Source: Aurantiochytrium sp. KH105 (lineage: Eukaryota > Sar > Bigyra > Thraustochytrida > Thraustochytriidae). From it: 64,000 nt of DNA. The notes under the pieces are model-generated. The model did no database searches. It was not told the DNA's origin and saw only the letters and a program-made list of their open reading frames with translations. The position numbers and the translations under genes are program-made. Shown one piece after another: positions 29,695-59,360 of the stretch (its first letter is position 1; every line of letters starts with the position of its first letter). The DNA is taken from the NCBI GenBank assembly GCA_003116975.1, contig BGKB01000262.1, positions 124,001-188,000 of the forward strand. The letters run 5' to 3'.

Positions 29695-32043
29695 TCACTC
29701 GTCCTTTGACTCACCACCGCCAGCGCTATTCTGTGAGCGAGCCATCGCAGCTGCAGCAAGACGAAGACGTAATTCTTGCTGAGGAGTCGACAGGCGCTCG
29801 CCAGATGCACTGCCTGTTTCGTCCGCGGTTTGTGTGCCGTCTGGTGTGAGCCCAGGATCCTCACGAGGAAGAGCGTCTTGTTCAATGCCGCGTTCGGTGT
29901 CCCGCGATGGTGCTGGTGGCGGCGTCAAGGGCTGCCTCGGTGCCTCTGGAGATGCGAGATCTTCATCTCGAAACCCTGGCGCAGGAACTGGCAAGCCTTC
30001 TTCTTCGGGTGGCGGAGCTTCCTTGGCATCTTCGTTCTCAGCGGCAGTCTCGTCATGGTCACCCGATACATGTCCTAATGAATATGGCACACCTTCATCT
30101 GCTTCTGCTTCTGCTCCTTCCTCTTCATTATCATTCTTCTGTTGTTGCTGATGCTGGTGTTGCTGCCGCGCGTGAAACTCGCGAGCACGCATTGCGGCAA
30201 GCGCCGCCCTTCGCGTAGCATGAGCTGCGTTGGCCTGTGCTTGGTAAACTTGAAGCTGAAGCTGGAGAATCTCGATCTGACTCTGCAAATATTGCGCCAC
30301 ACTAGGAAGTTCACCTCCAGCAACCGGAGCGCCGGTGACCGTCCCCGTGGGCCCGAGACCCATGGGAAACCCAAACGGTGGCGGAGAACGCAGTCTCGAT
30401 TGTGAAGCACCACTCCAAGCTGCACTTGGCAGACCTGGCATGCCTGATCTGCTACTTGAAGCAGAAGCGCTCTGGGTACCATGACCTTGGCGTGCGTAAC
30501 TTACAAAGTCTCTGTTGCGACCGGCTTGCTCGCTCCTCGGACGAGTTGGTGACGCTTGCGCTGCATGCGAAGCACTTTCCCTACCAGACGCGCGCGGTTG
30601 CACTCGTGGGGAAGAAGAGGACCTCGTCTCCTCGCGCTGCTGCTCTTGCTGCTGCTGGCTTCTTCGGTCTTGCTCCTGTGGCGGCTGCTCTTGCTCTTGT
30701 GGCTCTTGATCGTGCGGCTGTTGCTCCTGTCCGAGCCTTTGCCATCGCAAGCCATTCATGAAGGCATTATCATTCATGAAATGCCGCGGAGCACGCAATC
30801 CACCCTGCGCGTTGCCTTCTTCTGCTGGTGCTTGCCCCACAGGCGCGGCCTGGGGGGGCTGGGCCCGGTCGTTGTTGGCTTCATCCTCGGGCCTTTGGTT
30901 GCGATCGCGGCCTACGTCGGCATTGCCGCCTCCCACGCCCCCGCCTCTGACCTCGGCGCCGCCGTTGCCCAAGTTGTTGACAGCTGCGGCAGGCCGATTG
31001 TTGTTCCTTTGGGCTTGGTTCCAAGGAATGTCCGTGCGACAGGTCGGGCACTTGAGCTGCCGCTCGAGCCAGTTGCGAAGACAGTAAAAGTGGAAAATGT
31101 GTCCGCATGACCCGAGCTTTTTGGGTGCGCCAATACCAGTGGCAGCGACCATCTCCTCTCGACAAATAATGCAAACCCGATCGGTCGCCTCGAGGTCCTC
31201 CTCCGTCGCACTCTGGAAGCTATCGTGAAGATTGGCCGTAATTTGGCGAAACCGCCAAAAGTGGGAGAGCCTGTCATGGACGTTCTTGGCCGCAATGTAC
31301 AGCTGGCGCATGAGGTGCAGTGGGACGCCATAGTAGGTGAAAATGATGGCAAAAAAGACCATATTGACGATGAGCTGCGCCATGTCGATAAAGAGCTTCA
31401 GATACAGCTCATAGAGAGACTTGTTGTACCATTGACCCTGGATGAAGTGCATGTCGATGGCCGCAAGACAATACTTGATAAAGACTTCCATGACTTTGAT
31501 GGCCAGCAGAATGTACTCAAATCCAAAAAACACCTGCACCGAAGGCCCCTGTGTTTGCACAACATACAATGACGCCCCTGCGCAACATACGTCCACAAAG
31601 AGGAGAACGGCCATCAAACTCACGGTCCGCGCGTGTGCAAGTCGCGAGGTCTCCTGCGCTTGCTCGAGGTGCTCCACGCGCGCCTCGCATAACCAGTGAA
31701 ACACTTTGGCAAAGAGAAGCGCTGTGAACATGATCACCACATTGAGACTCATCTCTTCGCGAAAGGTGGATAGTGCCAGACAGGTTTCTGTGAAAGCGTA
31801 GCGCAGATTTTCCCAAATGATCTCGCGCTCCACCTCACGCAGACGACCCAAGAAAATCTTGTTGGTGAGCTGTCCAAGCGCAATTGTGAACACGAACGCC
31901 ATATTTCCCAGCACCATGATGGCCGGCTTCGATGTGACCAGGTAGATCACCGCCGGATAGAACTGCACTCTCGTCATGTACGCGTACGAGACAACGCCTG
32001 CAGTCACCAGCGTTGACGCGATGGCATATTCCGTGAATCTCAT
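29695..32043 (-). CDS. HRD1: HRD1/synoviolin-type ER-membrane E3 ubiquitin ligase
   Basis: 782 aa from the ATG at 32043 (MRFTEYAIAS). The N-terminal ~250 residues hold about six hydrophobic membrane segments, including the HRD1 signature SKPAIMVLGNMAFVFTIALG and GRLREVEREIIWENLRYAFTE. A RING-H2 domain (291-335) reads CIIC, CGHIFHFYC and CPTC, so the zinc ligands are complete. HRD1 retrotranslocates and ubiquitinates misfolded ER proteins (ERAD) with SEL1/DER1. The C-terminal ~440 residues are disordered, with Gln, Ala, Glu and His-rich runs (QQHQHQQQQ), much larger than in animals. It diverges from the SH2-TPR gene. Confidence 0.94.
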   Translation of the reverse strand: MRFTEYAIASTLVTAGVVSYAYMTRVQFYPAVIYLVTSKPAIMVLGNMAFVFTIALGQLTNKIFLGRLREVEREIIWENLRYAFTETCLALSTFREEMSLNVVIMFTALLFAKVFHWLCEARVEHLEQAQETSRLAHARTVSLMAVLLFVDVCCAGASLYVVQTQGPSVQVFFGFEYILLAIKVMEVFIKYCLAAIDMHFIQGQWYNKSLYELYLKLFIDMAQLIVNMVFFAIIFTYYGVPLHLMRQLYIAAKNVHDRLSHFWRFRQITANLHDSFQSATEEDLEATDRVCIICREEMVAATGIGAPKKLGSCGHIFHFYCLRNWLERQLKCPTCRTDIPWNQAQRNNNRPAAAVNNLGNGGAEVRGGGVGGGNADVGRDRNQRPEDEANNDRAQPPQAAPVGQAPAEEGNAQGGLRAPRHFMNDNAFMNGLRWQRLGQEQQPHDQEPQEQEQPPQEQDRRSQQQQEQQREETRSSSSPRVQPRASGRESASHAAQASPTRPRSEQAGRNRDFVSYARQGHGTQSASASSSRSGMPGLPSAAWSGASQSRLRSPPPFGFPMGLGPTGTVTGAPVAGGELPSVAQYLQSQIEILQLQLQVYQAQANAAHATRRAALAAMRAREFHARQQHQHQQQQKNDNEEEGAEAEADEGVPYSLGHVSGDHDETAAENEDAKEAPPPEEEGLPVPAPGFRDEDLASPEAPRQPLTPPPAPSRDTERGIEQDALPREDPGLTPDGTQTADETGSASGERLSTPQQELRLRLAAAAMARSQNSAGGGESKDE

Positions 32044-32705
32044 CTTCTTTCCCGGCCGGTCGGGACCCCACCTGTCGCCGAGCCTTGCCTTCTCCGCGAG
32101 CACGCCACGCGAAAGTCTTCGTCTCCGTTGCCGGCCTCGACGGCGCGCTCACCTCGATTTTCGATTTCAAAATCGGCCAATGATGCGATGCGATCCGCTC
32201 CCGCCGCCTCTCCGCCCGCTCGCCCGCTCGCCCGGCCGGCCTCGCTGCCGCGCCGCGCGCCGCGCCGCCGCGCCCCGCCCGCCGCGCGCGGGCTCGCCGC
32301 CTCCTGGCCGCGCCGCGCCGCGCCGCGCTCGTTGCGACTCTGCCGCGTCGGGCCTGCCGCGGCGGGCCCTAACCGCTTTCCGCGCCGACGCAAGTCGGAC
32401 TTTCGCCCGCGCACAGTGGGCCGGGCGCGGCGGCAAGTGCACCAAACGAGCACGCGACGCGGCCGCCCTCGCCTCGCTCGGCAAAGATAGATCCATCTTG
32501 TCTATCTGTCACGAGCGGTCGATCGATCGATCGATGATCGATCGATCGATCGCGCGCTCGACCCGGGCGGCGCGAGAGACCCGGATAAGCCCTGGCCGCC
32601 CGCGCCCGCGCGCCGCCGCGAGACAGACCCGGAGAGGCCCCCCCGCGCGCGCACGGAGGAGCGCGCGAAGGAGGGAGCCGTCGCGCCCGGAGAGAGGAGG
32701 TCGTC
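32044..32705. promoter_or_regulatory. Divergent promoter region, HRD1/SH2-TPR
   Basis: 662 bp between two divergent starts. It contains an (ATCG)n tract at about 32518-32555, which can form self-pairing hairpins, and GCGCCG-rich DNA near 32260-32330. No gene supported. Confidence 0.5.
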
Positions 32706-32846
32706 ATGGAGGACGAGGCGAGCGCCGAGGCTGTGCAGCAGCAGCAGCAGCAGCAGCAGCAGCGGCAGCGGCAGCGCGACGCTGGCGAGGAGGGCGCCGA
32801 GGGGGAGACGGGCGGCATCTACGAAGACGCTACGACGGGGGAAATC

Positions 32847-32891
<45 letters not shown>

Positions 32892-35366
32892 AACAACGAT
32901 AGTGTCAATACCAGCAGCACCGGTATGGCCACGAATGACACAGACACGAAGACAAACACGAGCGGCGATATTTTGCATGGCACCAGCAACGACAGCAGCA
33001 ACGGCAGTGACAAAGTAGTAGATGGGGAGGGTAGTTCATTTGCGCAAGAGATCGTGGACGAAGTCGTGGCGAGTGTTGTCGCTCAGGACACGGTCAAGTC
33101 GCAGGAATCTGGGAGTAGCCAGGACGCAGAGGAGGAGTCGCTGTCCATATGTGTCGATGATGAAGACCTCAAAGCTGTCGCGAGCGAGGATGCAGAAACG
33201 CCTGCGACCATTGTCCCAACCCCCACCGATAGTGAATTCAATTCCGAAGATCAAGGTGCGCAAGAAAAGAACAATTCACAGTCTGGCAATACTCTCCTGT
33301 CTACATCTCAACCCCCAGAGCCAATCAAAACACAAGCGAAAGTTGTCCCGTCCGATGCCTCTCACGATGAAGAAAGCACCCTCGAAGATATGGGATCCAC
33401 AGAGGACGAAGAGGAAACCTTGTTCCTTTTCGACGCAAACCGAGAAGCGCACCGTCTATTCGCCATGGCTCCGCAGCATGCTGCTGCCGAAAGTAGCTCT
33501 CTGGGCGAAGATGCAAGTGTGCGAATGGGCGAGTTGATCGAAATTGTGCAGCGGCTAGAGCAAGATAGTGGTGACGTAGTGTCCGATCCTGTGCGCATTG
33601 TTCGTGTTTTGGAGATCTTGACAGACTGCCGTAGGACGAACGACACGTATGTTTGGCCCAACCTTGAGCAGCCTGTTCTTTTCAAAGACGTTCGGGACTT
33701 TGTAGCAATTTTTGGCCCCGCTCACGTCGCCTTTAAACGGGCACATGGCTCGCTTTTCGATAAGTTTGGCTTTGTTCGGCCCGAGTTCTGGGGCAATGCG
33801 AGTAGAGCCAGTGTAACGAAAGCCTTGACAGGGGAATCGCCCGGAAGTTATATCATTAGGACGATGCGTTCGCGCGCAGTGGCAAAGCTCGTTGTATCGT
33901 ACGTCGCGCGCGGCGGGAAGACGCGTCACTGCGGTCTAATGAATGCCGGGATCGCCGGACTCCATGTGCACGCGAGCCGAGCTGCTACAAGCCCCAATCA
34001 CGGCGCAGATGGCAAACGGGCCGGATTGTCACCAGCTCGAGGCACGGAATCTAGCCATTTGTTCGCCGACCTCGATGCTTTTCTATGCGCGACGAACGCG
34101 CACCTGTACAAACCTAAACCTGGGCCATTGGCCACACGCTGGAATCGAGTCATCTGTAAAGACCTGCAGCTTCCAAAGACTGCGCTCGCAGCACTCGAGG
34201 AGGGGTGGACTGATACTGATCTCATGCACGCGTACTTTGTCAAGAGTGCTGAAAGCAGTACAGCTGGCGGGAAAGACCAAGACGAGTGTGCGAGGGAGTG
34301 TGCGCATCGGGCACCTCGGACTTCGAACGTTGCGATCAGCTGCTCTTTATGTGGGCTTTCCTCGCACGCAAGTACGCATTCCTCGGAAGCGGCCTCTGCA
34401 GTGCGGGACCACGAGTCCTCATCAGACGGGTCGTCGCAGGGATTGACGAATCCGGACGAGCTTGACTTTCTATTACGCAAAGGCGCAGACCGCTTTCAGA
34501 AAGGCGCGCGCGATGAAGCCGAGGATATTTTCCGCGACGTTTGGGAAAGGGCAGAGAGGAACGTTGCGTACCAAATTGACTACGGGGCCGAGGCCAAGAC
34601 CTCGCAGCCAACCACAAACCTTGTGTACAAGGGCTTACTGAAGCACGATGCACGCGCAGCGTGGTGCAAGTGTATCGCCTGCTCAAGCCTACGAGCCCAA
34701 GCGCGCGCATTGGGCAATATTGGTCACATTTACTCGGACAGGAAAAAGGTGCCGGAAGCTGTCGAACTCTACGAGCAAAGTCTTCCAATTCTCAGGGAGA
34801 TGGGCATGTGGAAGCAAGAGCCTATTGTACTTTCCAGCCTGACTCAATGTGCTTATCTCGCCAACGATGCGGCGCTGGGAGGACATTACGGCGTCGAGTA
34901 CATGGGCACGGTGACGCAGTCGAATGACCGTGCGAATCTCATGCGTCGGCTCGGGGACCTTGGCGCCATCGAGGCAGCGGGCCGCCTCCCCAAAGACGAG
35001 GTGCTTGGCATCCTTCGCGCTGGAGATCTCGCGCTGCAGCGAAGCACGTATCCAGAACGCGCAGCTGTCATGTACTTACGATCTGTCCACCTTGCTCGGT
35101 GCTTGCCAAGCGATCTCGTTGAGGTCAACGCGCTCATACGTGCGGGATGTAGCTTGTACATGATGAATCGTCTTCGCGCAGCAATCATGTATCTGGAACG
35201 AGCGGTGCTCCTTTTGCGTTCAAACAATGCGTCGCCTGAAAACCGCCACGTAAGTCGCCAACGCGTCGAACTTCACAACCTTGCTCTTTCTTTTGTCAAT
35301 CAAGCCACGAACAAAGCTGGCTTCGCTTCTCCCGCCACGCAATCTGCAGCAAATCTTTTCATGTGA
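32706..35366 (+). CDS. SH2-like and TPR domain protein
   Basis: 886 aa from the ATG at 32706. Residues 1-250 are low-complexity: poly-Gln (11-19), poly-Ser (49-59), acidic stretches. Residues about 360-468 fit an SH2 domain. EFWGNASRASVTKAL matches the W-G-x-x-SR start, GSYIIR has Arg385 in the place of the FLVR arginine that binds phosphotyrosine, and later LVVSYV and RHCGL give strand and His cues. After a ~35-residue insert the end is FADLDAFLCATNAHL. Residues about 580-840 are TPR-like helices, best in ARALGNIGHIYSDRKKVPEA and VELYEQSLPILRE. SH2 binds phosphotyrosine and TPR binds protein partners, so a signalling adaptor is the simplest idea. The SH2 call needs a profile search. Confidence 0.8.
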
Positions 35367-35501: not shown

Positions 35502-38264
35502 TTAGTCAAAGTCGAGCACGGAGCTTGACATTTGTTTCGCAATGCGCGACATCTCCATCTCAAGCTGCTCTTGCTTCATGTATGCGCTTCGGGCCTCGCA
35601 CTCGAGGTCTTCGTCTTGCGCTTCCTGGTGATGCTGCTGCTGGTGGTGCTGGTGGTGCTGACGAGAGTAGTGTCGCTGCGCTTGGGACGATTCTTGATGC
35701 TGAAAGTAAGGCGGGTGATGCTGGTGATGGTGATGAAGACTATGCGTCGATGAAGAATAATGGTAGAGTCCATTTGAGGCCATATTGACTGGCAAGGCGA
35801 GTGGGGCCGGCGTATGCATTTCAGTCGGACAGGACATTCCAAATTGCACTGGTACATACGAGGGCCTATGCACAGGAGCTGCCACCGCCACTGGGACGCT
35901 TTCAGGAACTGATGCATGCTGGCGTGCTTTTGGAGCACAATCAGCACTTTGATGATGAACCGATGCACGCCGTTCGAGCCCTTGGAAATTAACAAATTGA
36001 GAATGTTCAGCATCCACCTTGAACTCGGTTGAATCCTTCCGACGCTGAAGATGCAGCTGCTCTCGGTGCGTTTGAAATGACACGAGTGCCTGTTCGAACC
36101 GTTTTCTTGGCCCAAGTGGCAAGCATAATCGATCCAGGTCGCGGAGATTGAGCATAGAGAGGGTCTCTAAATCAAGCTTTTCAGCGCGAAAATTTCCATA
36201 GTATTCTTCGAGTCCCAAACTCTGTAAGAAACGCCAAAGCCCGTTCTTACTGACAGTCTTTCCCACAGTTTTCTCAATTGAAACTCGTTTTTGCTGTTGC
36301 TGGAGCCGCTGCGGAGTCTGGTTCTGTTGCTGCTCCGACTGCTGCAGAGCAACAAAAGGTCGGTCTCGGTATTGAGGCAATCGCGCGGTCGGTCCTGGTT
36401 GTCGAGCGTGTGGGAGTGCTTGATTATTACAGCAGCTTTCCCGCGCACCATTTTCATGCTGGAGCTGCACGGCCTTCGAGAAAGAACGTTCAGAGAAGGA
36501 AAGACTCTCCGCCGAGGGTCTCTCGTGTTCTTGAACCTCGCCGGATTTGCCTCTCTCCGTTATTTTGGCTTCATCGACAAAGTTGGCACCCCGATGTCTT
36601 GTTGCACTCACTTCCGTAGGGATAGCAATTCGCTTGCCAGAACAATCCCCGCCTTGTATCTCAATATGTCTGCCGTGATTCATTGCCGTGTTTTGGCCGC
36701 CCTCGGTAGACTTCTTGCGATTGCACTCTGTCAAACAAGAGGGAGTCTTTGTGGAAGACGACGAAATTTCCTCGTTCGAAAGTCTTGGGTGATCTCCTAC
36801 TTTTCTCCATGACGTTTCTGGCGCAGGCTGCGCCACCATTCTTCTCGCCCGTTCCAACGCTTTCGCTCCTACCTTGCCCTCTTTAAGGCGGGAGCTCCCG
36901 CGGACCGATTTTACTTTTGCGACGGCTGTTGATTCGGGACCGGTTTCGACGCTATTTGCTTGAATATTCTTGCGCGCCGTGTTCGCAAGTCCGCCAGTGG
37001 ATTTCTTGCTTGCCTTGTCCCTGCGCCGAGACGTTTTCTGTTGCCACTCATTGCGGGGGTCTTGTGAGAGTGTGGCATACTCCCATTCTCCGATCACGTG
37101 TCCTTGAGACATTCCGTAGATATCTTCCTGGCTCGAAATACTCGCAGGCTCATGTTCCAAGAAGTCTGCAGAGTCTTGAGGCAAATTCTCATCCGAAGGA
37201 TGGATGATCTCACGTATGGAATTCTGATTCGAGTCGAATGCAGACTCTTTTGAGCCGAGCAGGGGCTCACTTTGTCTACCTTCGAGCTCTGAGCAGGGGT
37301 CGGCCTCCAAGCCCTGCAAAGGAGGGTGTTCTTCTGCTGCCGAGAGATCATGTTTGCCGTCGTTGTCAGTACTTGCCATGGGAGGCGTCGCCTCAGTCTC
37401 ACAACACTGCATATCGCTTGAAGAAAGCTTCTTGCTCAGAAGGTTGCCATTTTCGGCATCGTGTTGCTTTTCTACTAGTTGAGCCTTTGCTGGGACGTCT
37501 TTGCCAGAATTGTCGAAGCAGGCATTGTCGAGTGTTACACTCGAGCCAGTATTTGCCGGAAACCTCTGCTGCTCCTCAGAAGTCCTGCGTTCGATGCTTG
37601 TGTAATTATCGCCACGTAGAACGAGAGCTATCGTCTCGTTCTCAGGTATTTCTGAAGAACTAGATAGTTCAGCAGACGACGACAAACCTTTGCTTTGCGC
37701 CTTCTTCATGCATGAGCTAAGCTCGCCTGACTTTGAGGCCTCAATGCTTTCCTGAAGACGACCTATTACAAGAGACTTATTCTCTTCCGCAGACTCGATC
37801 TCTGCTACGGAGTGACGATTTGCAGGACCTGGAGCCGTGTCATATCGAGTTTGCCTCAAAAACCTACTTTGCGAAGCAGACTTTTCCTTTGACCGGATTG
37901 AAACTTTCCCTTGGGAGCCTGTCCGCTTTCGTTCATTTCGATGTCGGTTCGTCCTGGCTCGTTGAGTAGAAACACGTTGATTTTGGTCCCATTTGACAAG
38001 AGCGTGCAGTCGGTGTTCTACAAATCTAGGCACGCACCAATAGACGATAAATAAAGAAGTAATAGCAAGTGCTAGCAAGGCAGACGTAATGCCGCCGTCG
38101 GCAAGCACAGTAATAAGTCTCACCATGGCCTCATGGCAAGCGGTCAGCGCATGCGGGACATTTCTAGCTAGTGTCCACGCCACCCCATCCGGTCTTACGA
38201 GGAAAGCCGCGAGGAGAAGAAGAACTTGTCCAATATGGCTGCGCACAAGGTCGCGTGTGTCCAT
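35502..38264 (-). CDS. Membrane-anchored SAM-domain protein
   Basis: 920 aa from the ATG at 38264. Two N-terminal hydrophobic segments, about 10-30 (QVLLLLAAFLV) and 57-82 (GGITSALLALAITSLFIVYW), predict membrane insertion. A basic, Ser-rich, largely disordered region follows. A SAM domain at about 670-735 reads LWRFLQSLGLEEYYGNF, KLDLETLSMLNLRDLDRLCL and RKRFEQALVSF. The C-terminus is very rich in His, Gln and Pro (HHHHQHH-type runs) and ends with coiled-coil-like MEMSRIAKQM. SAM domains self-associate or bind RNA or proteins. A membrane-tethered scaffold is plausible but unproven. No orthologue recognised. Confidence 0.8.
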   Translation of the reverse strand: MDTRDLVRSHIGQVLLLLAAFLVRPDGVAWTLARNVPHALTACHEAMVRLITVLADGGITSALLALAITSLFIVYWCVPRFVEHRLHALVKWDQNQRVSTQRARTNRHRNERKRTGSQGKVSIRSKEKSASQSRFLRQTRYDTAPGPANRHSVAEIESAEENKSLVIGRLQESIEASKSGELSSCMKKAQSKGLSSSAELSSSSEIPENETIALVLRGDNYTSIERRTSEEQQRFPANTGSSVTLDNACFDNSGKDVPAKAQLVEKQHDAENGNLLSKKLSSSDMQCCETEATPPMASTDNDGKHDLSAAEEHPPLQGLEADPCSELEGRQSEPLLGSKESAFDSNQNSIREIIHPSDENLPQDSADFLEHEPASISSQEDIYGMSQGHVIGEWEYATLSQDPRNEWQQKTSRRRDKASKKSTGGLANTARKNIQANSVETGPESTAVAKVKSVRGSSRLKEGKVGAKALERARRMVAQPAPETSWRKVGDHPRLSNEEISSSSTKTPSCLTECNRKKSTEGGQNTAMNHGRHIEIQGGDCSGKRIAIPTEVSATRHRGANFVDEAKITERGKSGEVQEHERPSAESLSFSERSFSKAVQLQHENGARESCCNNQALPHARQPGPTARLPQYRDRPFVALQQSEQQQNQTPQRLQQQQKRVSIEKTVGKTVSKNGLWRFLQSLGLEEYYGNFRAEKLDLETLSMLNLRDLDRLCLPLGPRKRFEQALVSFQTHREQLHLQRRKDSTEFKVDAEHSQFVNFQGLERRASVHHQSADCAPKARQHASVPESVPVAVAAPVHRPSYVPVQFGMSCPTEMHTPAPLALPVNMASNGLYHYSSSTHSLHHHHQHHPPYFQHQESSQAQRHYSRQHHQHHQQQHHQEAQDEDLECEARSAYMKQEQLEMEMSRIAKQMSSSVLDFD

Positions 38265-55388: not shown

Positions 55389-58300
55389 ATGAGCACGGAC
55401 CCCGAGGGAGAGCATGGCGCGGCGTGGGACGCCTACGTGTGCCGCAGCGGCGTGCGCGCCGGGCGGCCGCACCCTGGACACATCGTGGAACCGGCGAGTT
55501 TGGCGGCGGTGACGCTGCCGCCGCTGACGTACCCGGTCCTTGACGCGCTCGGAGAGCAGGTGGAAAGAGGCGATCTGAGCCAGCTCCAGCTCGAAGGCGT
55601 TGCCTATGCCTGCCAGAAACACCAGCACATTATGCCTGACAGAACGCGGTCGGGATTCTTCATCGGCGATGCCACGGGGACAGGCAAAGGGCGCCAGATC
55701 GCTGGCATCGTCGTGGACAACATGAGCCGCGGCAGACGGCGACACTTGTGGTGTTCCACGAGCGTAGACCTCATCAAAGACGCAATGCGGGATTTTCAGG
55801 ACCTTCATGTCAATGTCACCGTGCACAATGGCGTGCGCATGCTCGACAAGTCCAATAAGGGACTTGGCGCCAGCAAGGCCTCGCGCAAGGGGGTGCTCTT
55901 CACAACGTACGCCTCTCTAGTCTCCTCGACTGCTTCGCGCGATCGTTTTGATCAAATTGCTTCTTGGCTTGGCGACGATGAGGAATTTGAGGGCTGTCTC
56001 ATCTTCGATGAGTGCCACAAGGCCAAGAACTTTGCCGAAAAAGAGGGGAAGGGCTCCCGTGTCGCCAAGGCCGTCGTGCGCCTCCAGCGCCGTTTTCCCC
56101 GCGCGCGCTGTGTCTATGTTTCGGCCACAGGAGTTTCTGATATCAGCAACATGGCGTACATGGACCGACTGGGACTCTGGGGCAAGGGCGCTGCTTTTGA
56201 AAGTTTCGACGACTTTCGCACGTCCATGGGCAGGCGCAACATGGGCGCCCTCGAGATGCTAGCGATTGAGCTCAAGTCCACGGGCTACCACGTCAGTCGC
56301 GGGCTGTCTTTTGCAGACACAACTTTCGACCTGGTGCAAGCAAGACTCACTGCAGAGCAGCTCCGCATCTACTTTGGCGCGACAGCACTCTGGAACGACC
56401 TCCAGATCGCGTTAGAGCAGGCGATTGAGCTCGCTGGGGCATCTGGTAAATTATGGTCGCCCTTTTGGTCAGCTCATCAACGCTTCTTTAAGCAGTTGTG
56501 CGTCGCATTTAAGGTTCCTGACGTTGTCCGGCTTGCTCGGGGCGCCCTTGCCGACGGACACTGTGTCGTCATTGGCCTTCAGTCCACGGGCGAGGCTGCG
56601 GTCGACTTTTGGTCTACGGGATGCACGCCAGCGCAACGAGACAAAATTTCTGCCTGCGCAGTGGGCAATCTTGCCATTCTGAACTTTTTGCAGTCGCACT
56701 TCCCGACAGTCCATGCAGATGTCGCTGCCATGCAAGCAAAGACCCAGCAGGGCTCAAGCCAAAACGCGCTGACGAGCGCAAACAAAACACTTATGAATCT
56801 TCATGCCGAGACACACGCCAAGCTTGAGGCGATGAAATCGAGTTTTATTGCGCGCGCCACCGCGCTGGAACTTCCAGCGTCCGCCATTGACGATTTGATT
56901 CACCAACTAGGAGGGCATCGCTCCGTTGCAGAAATGACAGGCCGTCGCAACTGCATCTTGGCTGACGAATCTGCATCATCTGAGACGCCCCTGTCAGCGC
57001 ATGCAACCAGGTGCACCGTTGTCCAGCGACAAGACATTGTCGCGCGCTCCAAGCTCGCCGGACCGTTAACAGACGGCACAGCCAAGGGGAAGTTGGCAAC
57101 AACTGCTGCTGTGCCGCCATCAGCGGCAGGCAGTACCGCGTCTAGCAATGCAATAGAGATGGAATCGTTGAACATTGGCGAGAAGGAAGCCTTTATGGCA
57201 GGAAGCAAACTCGTCGCCATTATTAGCGACGCGGCGAGCACAGGCATCTCCCTGCATGCAGATCAGCGCGTGGCCAATAAGCGTCGTCGAATACATATCA
57301 CGTGCGAGCTTGCTTGGGCTGCCGACACGGCCGTGCAGCAGTTGGGCCGCTCGCACAGGTCATCGCAGGTATGCGCACCCATGTTCAAGCTCGTAACGAG
57401 CGGGATCGGCGGCGAAAACCGCTTCATTTCGGCTGTTGCCTCGCGCCTGCGTAGTCTTGGGGCGCTCACTCACGGAGATCGCCGGGCGTCCACCGCTGGT
57501 GTAGCTCTCGACGATTTCGATTTTGATTCGATCCATGGCAGGAAGGCTCTTCAAGAACTTTGCGTTCATACTTCGCGCAGTGCCGTTGTCCCCGGCGTTG
57601 CTTGGTCTCAGGTGCTGCAGCGTGTTCGTGATCTCTGGTCGAGAGCCGAAAACGCTGGAGCGACCTTTGGAACGACCGTAAACGCACTAGATACAACGAA
57701 AGATGTTCAGGAAGAGGTCGCGGTTGTTGCTGGCCAGTCTCCCAAACACTGGCCAAAGAGTGAAGCGTCCTTTGTACTGTGCGCAGCAAAGTGTCTGCGC
57801 CTCATCTTCACCAATGTGCGTGCCACCCAGGTATTTTCCTCCACAGCACTGAACCTAAACGTCAGCGAAGCGGATCGCAAGTCCGTGAAAAAATTCCTCA
57901 ACAAGCTCCTCGGCCTCCCGATTCATCTGCAGGCTTTCCTCTTTGAGTACTTTACCGCTACGCTCGACAGCATTGTAGAGCAAGCCAAGCTTGACGGTAC
58001 CTTTGACGAGGGCGTGAGCGATGTACACGCGAACTCTGTTTCCGCTGCGCAAGCTCCCGAGGTCGTATACACAGATCCAGCAACAGGAGGTGAGCTCAAG
58101 CTACACGTTCTTCGTCTTGACCGTGGTGTTTCTTTCGAATCAGCCATGGGCTGGCTGAAACGGGGTATAGAGATTGCTCGCGCCAAGGTGAAAGCACGAA
58201 AAGGTCGTGCGGCGCCCCAAGAGTTCGAAAAGTCGACCTTGTCCTCTGTATCCGAGGATTCGTCGTCCGCTGATGCAAGAGTATCCGAGTCTGCGGGGCC

Positions 58301-59360
58301 AAAGGACAATTCCTCATTTGTCGAAGAAGCCTCGGTCTTGGGCGCAGGTGGTTTTTATGTCTCGCGAAATCACTCTGTTGCAGGACAGGACTTTATGTAT
58401 GCGCTCGCGATTAAGCTTGACGCAAGATCAGAGAAATACTCAATTTTCCGTCCAAACACGGGCCGCGCTGCTTTGGAGAAAACGAAGCGCGAGCTGGACC
58501 GCACGTATAAACCAATCGGGCTCGAGCAAGCCAGGTCCATTTGGGAGAATGTCTTTGCCATGACCAAGGATGGCTGTATACATGGCCCAGACTGCCCGGA
58601 AGGCCGAAATTGTTCTTTTGGCGTGCGCGTTCAGCACGTGGGGCTTCTCACCGGCGCCGTGGTTCCGCTATGGACCCAGCTTGCTGAAGTCCTCGCGGAT
58701 CCCACGCTGGGCATTCCACGATTTGATCAACGCATGCGCGTGGTGCGTGCTCAACTCGACTCTGGCGAGCGCGCAATTGGCATCAAGTGGCACATCAATG
58801 CGCTGTCGGCTCTTCGCCACAAGTTGGCCCAGCTCAACGCGAAATTGCACAGCGTTCGTCTCGTCATTCCGAACGGGGCGCGGCAATATGGCTTCGCACT
58901 GTTTCCGGACTTGCGCATTAAAGTGCTGAGTGACGAGGCCAGAGTTGCAGGCTTGAGGCCTGATCAGATGTTGGTACAGGTGGGTGACGCTCGACTAGGG
59001 CCTGGCGCCACACGTGACCAAGCGATGGCGCTCATTCGGGAAAAATTTAATCGTGTCACGCGCGTCCTCGATCTCGTAGTGCGTGACGTTGACTCGACAC
59101 CCCTGGCAAACAAAGGCCAAACAGGAGGGGCGCCTGCAAGTGTGTTTGAGGAACCAACGCAAATTGTCCCAGCCAGCTGCAAAGCACTCGCACGTAAGCC
59201 AATGACTCTTTTGGGATTTTTTGCGAAGCAAAAGAAAAAGCGCAATGACGACGATGACTCCACATCTGCAAGCACTCAGGTAATCGACCTGCAACGAGCA
59301 TCCAAACGTTCAAGGCCAAGCGCTGCGCCCTCGAGTCCCATTGTCATTGAGCTCGACTAG
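55389..59360 (+). CDS. SBNO: Strawberry-notch family DExH helicase-like protein
   Basis: 1323 aa from the ATG at 55389. The N-terminal helicase lobe has DATGTGKGRQIAG (motif I, about 94-106) and FDECHKAKNF (DECH 207-210), each as in SBNO. The C-terminal lobe has ISDAASTGISLHAD, then QLGRSHRSSQVCAP (about 651), and RSLGALTHGDRRA. An SBNO-type tail region (IHGPDCPEGRNCSFGVRVQH, MRVVRAQLDSGERAIGIKW) follows. After it come a PDZ-like module (about 1155-1240), a PIP-box-like PMTLLGFF (about 1270) and SUMO-interaction-like VIDL and IVIEL near the C-terminus. SBNO proteins affect transcription and signalling. The C-terminal additions are not in the animal proteins as I know them. Confidence 0.93.
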   Translation: MSTDPEGEHGAAWDAYVCRSGVRAGRPHPGHIVEPASLAAVTLPPLTYPVLDALGEQVERGDLSQLQLEGVAYACQKHQHIMPDRTRSGFFIGDATGTGKGRQIAGIVVDNMSRGRRRHLWCSTSVDLIKDAMRDFQDLHVNVTVHNGVRMLDKSNKGLGASKASRKGVLFTTYASLVSSTASRDRFDQIASWLGDDEEFEGCLIFDECHKAKNFAEKEGKGSRVAKAVVRLQRRFPRARCVYVSATGVSDISNMAYMDRLGLWGKGAAFESFDDFRTSMGRRNMGALEMLAIELKSTGYHVSRGLSFADTTFDLVQARLTAEQLRIYFGATALWNDLQIALEQAIELAGASGKLWSPFWSAHQRFFKQLCVAFKVPDVVRLARGALADGHCVVIGLQSTGEAAVDFWSTGCTPAQRDKISACAVGNLAILNFLQSHFPTVHADVAAMQAKTQQGSSQNALTSANKTLMNLHAETHAKLEAMKSSFIARATALELPASAIDDLIHQLGGHRSVAEMTGRRNCILADESASSETPLSAHATRCTVVQRQDIVARSKLAGPLTDGTAKGKLATTAAVPPSAAGSTASSNAIEMESLNIGEKEAFMAGSKLVAIISDAASTGISLHADQRVANKRRRIHITCELAWAADTAVQQLGRSHRSSQVCAPMFKLVTSGIGGENRFISAVASRLRSLGALTHGDRRASTAGVALDDFDFDSIHGRKALQELCVHTSRSAVVPGVAWSQVLQRVRDLWSRAENAGATFGTTVNALDTTKDVQEEVAVVAGQSPKHWPKSEASFVLCAAKCLRLIFTNVRATQVFSSTALNLNVSEADRKSVKKFLNKLLGLPIHLQAFLFEYFTATLDSIVEQAKLDGTFDEGVSDVHANSVSAAQAPEVVYTDPATGGELKLHVLRLDRGVSFESAMGWLKRGIEIARAKVKARKGRAAPQEFEKSTLSSVSEDSSSADARVSESAGPKDNSSFVEEASVLGAGGFYVSRNHSVAGQDFMYALAIKLDARSEKYSIFRPNTGRAALEKTKRELDRTYKPIGLEQARSIWENVFAMTKDGCIHGPDCPEGRNCSFGVRVQHVGLLTGAVVPLWTQLAEVLADPTLGIPRFDQRMRVVRAQLDSGERAIGIKWHINALSALRHKLAQLNAKLHSVRLVIPNGARQYGFALFPDLRIKVLSDEARVAGLRPDQMLVQVGDARLGPGATRDQAMALIREKFNRVTRVLDLVVRDVDSTPLANKGQTGGAPASVFEEPTQIVPASCKALARKPMTLLGFFAKQKKKRNDDDDSTSASTQVIDLQRASKRSRPSAAPSSPIVIELD

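Follow-up and report, generated by a model that had tools for sequence, protein, structure and literature searches.

The forward strand of contig BGKB01000262.1 of Aurantiochytrium sp. KH105, between positions 124,001 and 188,000 (the 64,000-nucleotide stretch called the window here), carries a gene whose 886-residue product, judged from its letters, its relatives and its predicted structure, has a true SH2 domain and TPR repeats in a combination that is conserved, from which a function may be inferred. The protein is probably a phosphotyrosine adaptor. The computed basis for such an adaptor is the sequence and fold of the SH2 domain, an arginine (Arg385) at the FLVR position, another that aligns with the alpha-A2 Arg of p85, the TPRs, conservation among thraustochytrids and purifying selection; the phosphotyrosine ligand, the binding of zinc and the existence of partners are what we infer. 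In the proposed mechanism, a helix-SH2 module would recognize phosphorylation, most likely of tyrosine, on a first partner, the TPR superhelix would bind a second partner, a cysteine cluster, possibly zinc-bound, would connect the two, and the output would be complex assembly dependent on phosphorylation. A preliminary description of the gene had proposed the SH2 fold, the position of the arginine and the fusion to TPRs, and all three are now supported. Neither outcome that it had named as refuting came about: SH2 is hit by profiles, in relatives, and by the fold search, and the arginine sits at the pocket position.

Domain order and relatives

From the N- to the C-terminus, an acidic, low-complexity region is followed by a helical linker, the SH2 domain, the cysteine cluster and the TPR repeats. 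The features are as follows.

32706-35366, + strand: SH2-TPR gene, a single open frame of 886 amino acids, known from its translation, a second haplotype copy and the homologues P0002, P0003, P0004, P0011 and P0012
33678-33785, + strand: helical linker, residues 325-360, with FGP invariant in 5/5 sequences (F13, G14 and P15 of alignment A8) and model helices at 10-20 and 23-34
33786-34115, + strand: SH2 domain, residues ~361-470
33802-34035, + strand: stretch of 234 nt without counterpart in FCC1311_038692, with GT and AG ends, in frame and free of stops
33858-33860, + strand: codon AGG of Arg385, the predicted FLVR-type phosphate-binding Arg (column R62 of alignment A8), profile-aligned with the FLVR Arg of p85
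33924-33938, + strand: RHCGL, residues 407-411, beta-D strand with a conserved His; RH.GL in 5/5, aligned with KHCVI of p85
34287-34352, + strand: four-cysteine cluster, Cx1-3C...CxxC (C528, C532, C546, C549), all four Cys in 5/5 sequences; possible zinc site
34443-35360, + strand: TPR region, residues ~580-885, from Pfam, fold matches and haplotype dN/dS (the ratio of non-synonymous to synonymous rates), which is 0.03 over residues 577-886
34662-34682, + strand: WCKCIAC motif, residues 653-659, inside the TPR region; WCKCxxC and the preceding His647 invariant in 5/5

Five true relatives came from two protein searches, to which a third added none: P0002, which is FCC1311_038692 of Hondaea fermentalgiana, P0003 (49% identity), P0004 (40%), P0011 (37%) and P0012, which is A0A7S2WCW6 of Mucochytrium quahogii (39% identity, 93% query coverage), named 'SH2 domain-containing protein' at its source. 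The other matches (6 of 9 in the first search and 3 of 8 in the second) were multi-TPR proteins over 6-29% of the query, the strongest being P0005 (E 3.6e-23), and were set aside. Hondaea and Mucochytrium both belong to the Thraustochytrida (Labyrinthulomycetes, Stramenopiles), bearing out the stramenopile origin that had been guessed from the DNA alone. The record of P0004, from a contig of 4.8 kb, is assigned to the dinoflagellate Durusdinium trenchii, and we suspect it to be a thraustochytrid contaminant; in an otherwise thraustochytrid family, contamination and transfer are the possible alternatives, and a literature search at the level of titles and abstracts returned no evidence on contamination. 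The third search, for which just the SH2 region of P0004 served as query, brought back only P0004 and, because it missed the known relatives, is uninformative on any wider spread.

Within the 76-Mb, 367-contig assembly itself, a second copy of the gene (L010) shares 95% protein identity with the window copy, and of the aligned residues the Hondaea protein has 715 of 729 in common with L010 and 694 of 731 with the window copy. Given this second copy and the pairing of the other SH2 genes described below, we take the assembly to represent two haplotypes of a Hondaea-like thraustochytrid.

The layout had been put forward as one not recognized from known proteins. No earlier description of an SH2-Cys4-TPR architecture was found among the papers listed, mostly at title and abstract level, on SH2 domains in thraustochytrids, stramenopiles or oomycetes, on tyrosine kinases in thraustochytrids or on SH2 together with TPR, STAND or CHAT domains; the layout is common to other thraustochytrid sequences and not peculiar to this genome. 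The Mucochytrium protein has the same SH2-Cys4-TPR order, and no publication on it was found in the same literature search.

The SH2 domain and its predicted phosphate pocket

Profile evidence for the domain comes from the relatives. When seven family sequences were scanned with Pfam SH2 (PF00017; curated cut-off 21 bits), two exceeded the cut-off (P0004, 6.8e-8, 32.9 bits; P0011, 2.3e-5, 24.9 bits) and three were reported beneath it (P0003, 20.7; P0012, 17.4; the other haplotype, L010, 16.1 bits). The Hondaea model P0002, whose sequence is without the SH2 core, gave no report. The profile search suggested earlier as a check thus gave hits in relatives but returned nothing for the window copy itself, even at E<=10, a silence judged to be a miss of sensitivity because the relatives score. 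Likewise, a single-sequence search of the PDB with the window protein yielded nine TPR proteins and no SH2; in two further PDB searches the best 60 rows were SH2 or TPR proteins in one and SH2 proteins in the other, a profile search. The resemblance to SH2 domains exceeds chance.

The predicted structure agrees. Since TPR matches dominated the best 50 Foldseek rows for a 588-residue model (predicted local distance difference test, pLDDT, 66.8; predicted template modeling score, pTM, 0.47), the SH2 part was folded separately, giving five models of pLDDT 75.3-82.9 from an alignment of 5 sequences only. The predicted fold is that of an SH2 domain, a central sheet flanked by two helices, as had been proposed from the motifs, and SH2 chains occupy all of the best 50 VIA rows. 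These motifs lie where they were first placed in the 886-residue frame: FWGNASR at 361-367 (33786-33806), GSYIIR at 380-385 (33843-33860) and FADLDAFL at 453-460 (34062-34085). The domain covers residues ~361-470; the helical linker that begins near residue 325 had been overlooked, as had the cysteine cluster and the WCKCxxC motif. A similar linker, with RYGP, occurs in another protein of this genome, L001, which has two SH2 domains, so that linker and SH2 may form one module. The insert that had been noted ahead of the end motif is present, but in the model it is disordered and lies between strands 103-107 and 135-137 (model numbering), ahead of the last SH2 helix.

Some of the residues expected around a phosphate are in place. 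Arg385, which had been assigned to the phosphotyrosine-binding position, is invariant in all five aligned sequences and aligns with the FLVR Arg of p85. The beta-D His (His408, at beta-D4) and the beta-C Ser (S75 of alignment A8) are kept in 5/5 as well, and Arg367 aligns with the alpha-A2 Arg of p85 and is in register in 4/5. Phosphotyrosine is most likely the ligand that such a pocket would accept.

Downstream, TPRs follow the SH2 domain as the preliminary description had it, with TPR_10 (4e-8, 33.4 bits; cut-off 27.5) and TPR_1 (4.8e-7, 29.8 bits; cut-off 27.8) over their cut-offs and, besides these, a weak RPN6_N match below cut-off in the window copy. Fold matches of this region are designed TPRs, LGN and kinesin light chain (KLC), and LGN/Pins and KLC are the closest known systems for the TPR part. 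The cysteine cluster falls in a part of the model that is mostly below pLDDT 50 and hence unreliable, so that its designation as a putative zinc site is a guess from the cysteine pattern.

Among known SH2 domains of PF00017, the nearest solved are those of p85, CRK, SOCS and VAV, with which the window domain shares the fold, the FLVR-type Arg, the alpha-A2 Arg and the beta-D His; unlike them, the window protein adds a Cys4 cluster and TPRs, has Met for Ser two residues after the Arg and carries a longer insert before the last helix. SOCS proteins have a SOCS box behind the SH2; identity to the SH2 domains of SOCS1, SOCS2 and SOCS3 is 12-17%, the window protein has TPRs in that position instead, and Pfam reported no SOCS box in it. 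STATa of Dictyostelium has a helical linker ahead of its SH2. It is a weak match in the PDB profile search (1uur, E 0.016), and in both protist proteins the SH2 stands behind such a linker; for the window protein, the first 298 residues of which lie outside the fold model, Pfam gave neither a STAT coiled coil nor a STAT DNA-binding domain at E<=10. The tandem SH2 of Spt6 (SH2_2) belongs to the same SH2 family and has its own gene here (L005, Pfam SH2_2 2e-53), whereas the window protein has a single SH2, and Pfam reported no Spt6 domains in it.

Weighing the alternatives

Several observations weigh against phosphotyrosine binding, and most of them speak for the view that a true SH2 fold has drifted off phosphotyrosine, either to phosphoserine or phosphothreonine or to an unphosphorylated surface, and is now mainly structural within a TPR scaffold. 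Met387, two residues after Arg385 (beta-B7), replaces the pocket Ser in both haplotypes (P0003, P0004 and P0012 have Ser, P0011 Asn); Gly410 stands at beta-D6, often a Lys; the alpha-A2 Arg of P0011 is shifted one residue later; and the disordered insert of the window copy exceeds that of the four other relatives in the alignment by ~16-23 residues. In the two haplotypes the Pfam SH2 is either unreported or the weakest in the family, and the TPRs are the more constrained part (dN/dS 0.03 versus 0.13). The SH2 domain of Spt6 exemplifies an SH2 able to bind phosphothreonine (PMC7530234). Against such drift stand the invariance of Arg385 and of the beta-D His, the alpha-A2 Arg in register in four sequences, and the more canonical-looking motifs of the relatives (GTFLVRFSK in P0004, GDYIIRFSN in P0012). 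We therefore regard drift as unlikely, while giving it serious weight. That the likeness arose by chance or convergence, without SH2 homology, is scarcely credible and already largely refuted: the window copy is silent in Pfam, the best Foldseek E for the SH2 model is 2e-4, and the E-value for p85 is summed over two SH2 domains whose single-domain i-Evalues are only 0.14 and 5.6, weaknesses that count against the adaptor as well, yet two orthologues exceed the Pfam cut-off and the best rows of the profile and fold searches are filled as described above.

A different difficulty is posed by the Hondaea protein. It lacks the residues of 33802-34035, which are present in P0003, P0004, P0011 and P0012, and the SH2 core might accordingly be an intron, leaving a mature protein without SH2, or be spliced out in some transcripts to yield an SH2-less isoform. 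Because these 234 nt are in frame, open, a multiple of three and bounded by GT and AG, a gene predictor could mistake them for an intron. The frame runs through without a stop, however, the residues are conserved at the protein level in the four other sequences (one of which, P0012, is also known from the MMETSP source), and the Hondaea model misses a second stretch too, holding two of the four cluster cysteines. Between haplotypes, only 5 of 13 changes in residues 366-449, a span that reaches a little beyond the stretch, are non-synonymous (P=0.008 against neutral expectation, in a test that assumes independent changes and takes no account of transition bias), compared with 6 of 20 in residues 317-479 (P=2.8e-5) and 2 of 21 in residues 577-886 (P=1.7e-10). 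Given the protein-level conservation and the few non-synonymous changes, the stretch is judged to be coding; an intron here is very improbable, though a minor SH2-less splice form may exist. The case illustrates how a gene model can drop a signaling domain. With the alternatives so weighed, an adaptor that reads phosphotyrosine through its SH2 and engages a partner through its TPRs remains the probable reading.

Possible phosphotyrosine components in the genome and neighboring genes

The gene is of interest mainly because thraustochytrids may prove to have a phosphotyrosine system. The Acanthamoeba genome paper (PMC4053784) argues for an early unikont origin of a full phosphotyrosine writer-eraser-reader set. 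Thraustochytrids are not unikonts, and a conserved SH2-TPR reader in them makes the question of phosphotyrosine signaling testable. They are also cultivable and partly open to genetic work. A PF00017 search of the genome gave 10 domain hits, which we assign to four pairs of genes, for a protein with two SH2 domains, Spt6, an SH2 protein with a CHAT domain and one with an AAA_16 ATPase. The window gene, missed by this search, is a fifth SH2 gene, and further misses are possible.

Erasers are represented by classical protein tyrosine phosphatases, whose 12 matches include two strong loci, each present twice. For writers, a PK_Tyr_Ser-Thr search gave at least 146 matches, with 142 of 703 candidates scored. 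The catalytic loop was examined in 28 of 30 of these kinase loci and in one further kinase that a DNA pattern had picked out. This pattern, a degenerate one encoding HRD-[I/L/M/F]-x-A-x-N, occurred three times: two of the sites are copies of one kinase, and the third, whose frame contains stops, was taken as chance. The kinase (L056:1-4203 on C15; copy on C247) is a candidate tyrosine kinase with the loop HRDIAARN, SAM and kinase domains over cut-off and Drf_GBD below. Tyrosine kinases make up 58 of its best 60 PDB rows, but the tyrosine-kinase-like (TKL) kinase CTR1 ranks third and fourth and tyrosine kinases are abundant in the PDB, so that it may be only tyrosine-kinase-like, a point against the phosphotyrosine reading of the window gene. 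A phosphotyrosine writer in this genome is thus plausible but not established.

It is possible, and we propose it tentatively, that thraustochytrids run their own complete phosphotyrosine circuit, with the SAM-kinase as a tyrosine-kinase-like writer, classical phosphatases as erasers and the SH2-Cys4-TPR, double-SH2 and CHAT- or ATPase-SH2 proteins as readers; the SH2-Cys4-TPR protein would then act as a TPR scaffold gated by phosphotyrosine and passed down throughout the group.

The other SH2 genes are of interest in their own right. L050:1986-4982 (C20; copy L008 on C121) is a 999-residue frame with CHAT (5.9e-14), NB-ARC below cut-off and, at the C-terminus, an SH2 that passes its cut-off, an architecture of the death or immunity type whose SH2 looks STAT-like by eye (YWNQGVIFGLVSKE...GTFLIRISES). 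L049:1889-4228 (C178; copy on C74) is a 780-residue frame with AAA_16 and SH2 over cut-off and NACHT and STAND below; on visual comparison only, its N-terminus is similar to the CHAT part of L050. L051:1851-4154 (C193; copy on C43) carries a pair of SH2 domains scoring 68.6 bits, each with a GTFLIRFS motif, together with a Cbl_N3 match and a linker, RYGP, that is comparable to FGP in the window gene.

The neighboring genes of the window include the following.

29695-32103, - strand: synoviolin-like ubiquitin ligase (TPR_SYVN1_N 4e-89, RING), an ordinary neighbor
35502-38264, - strand: SAM-domain protein of 920 amino acids
39393-42485, + strand: MIF4G-MA3 protein
55389-59360, + strand: Strawberry-notch helicase homologue (AAA_34, Helicase_C_4, SBNO), likewise ordinary
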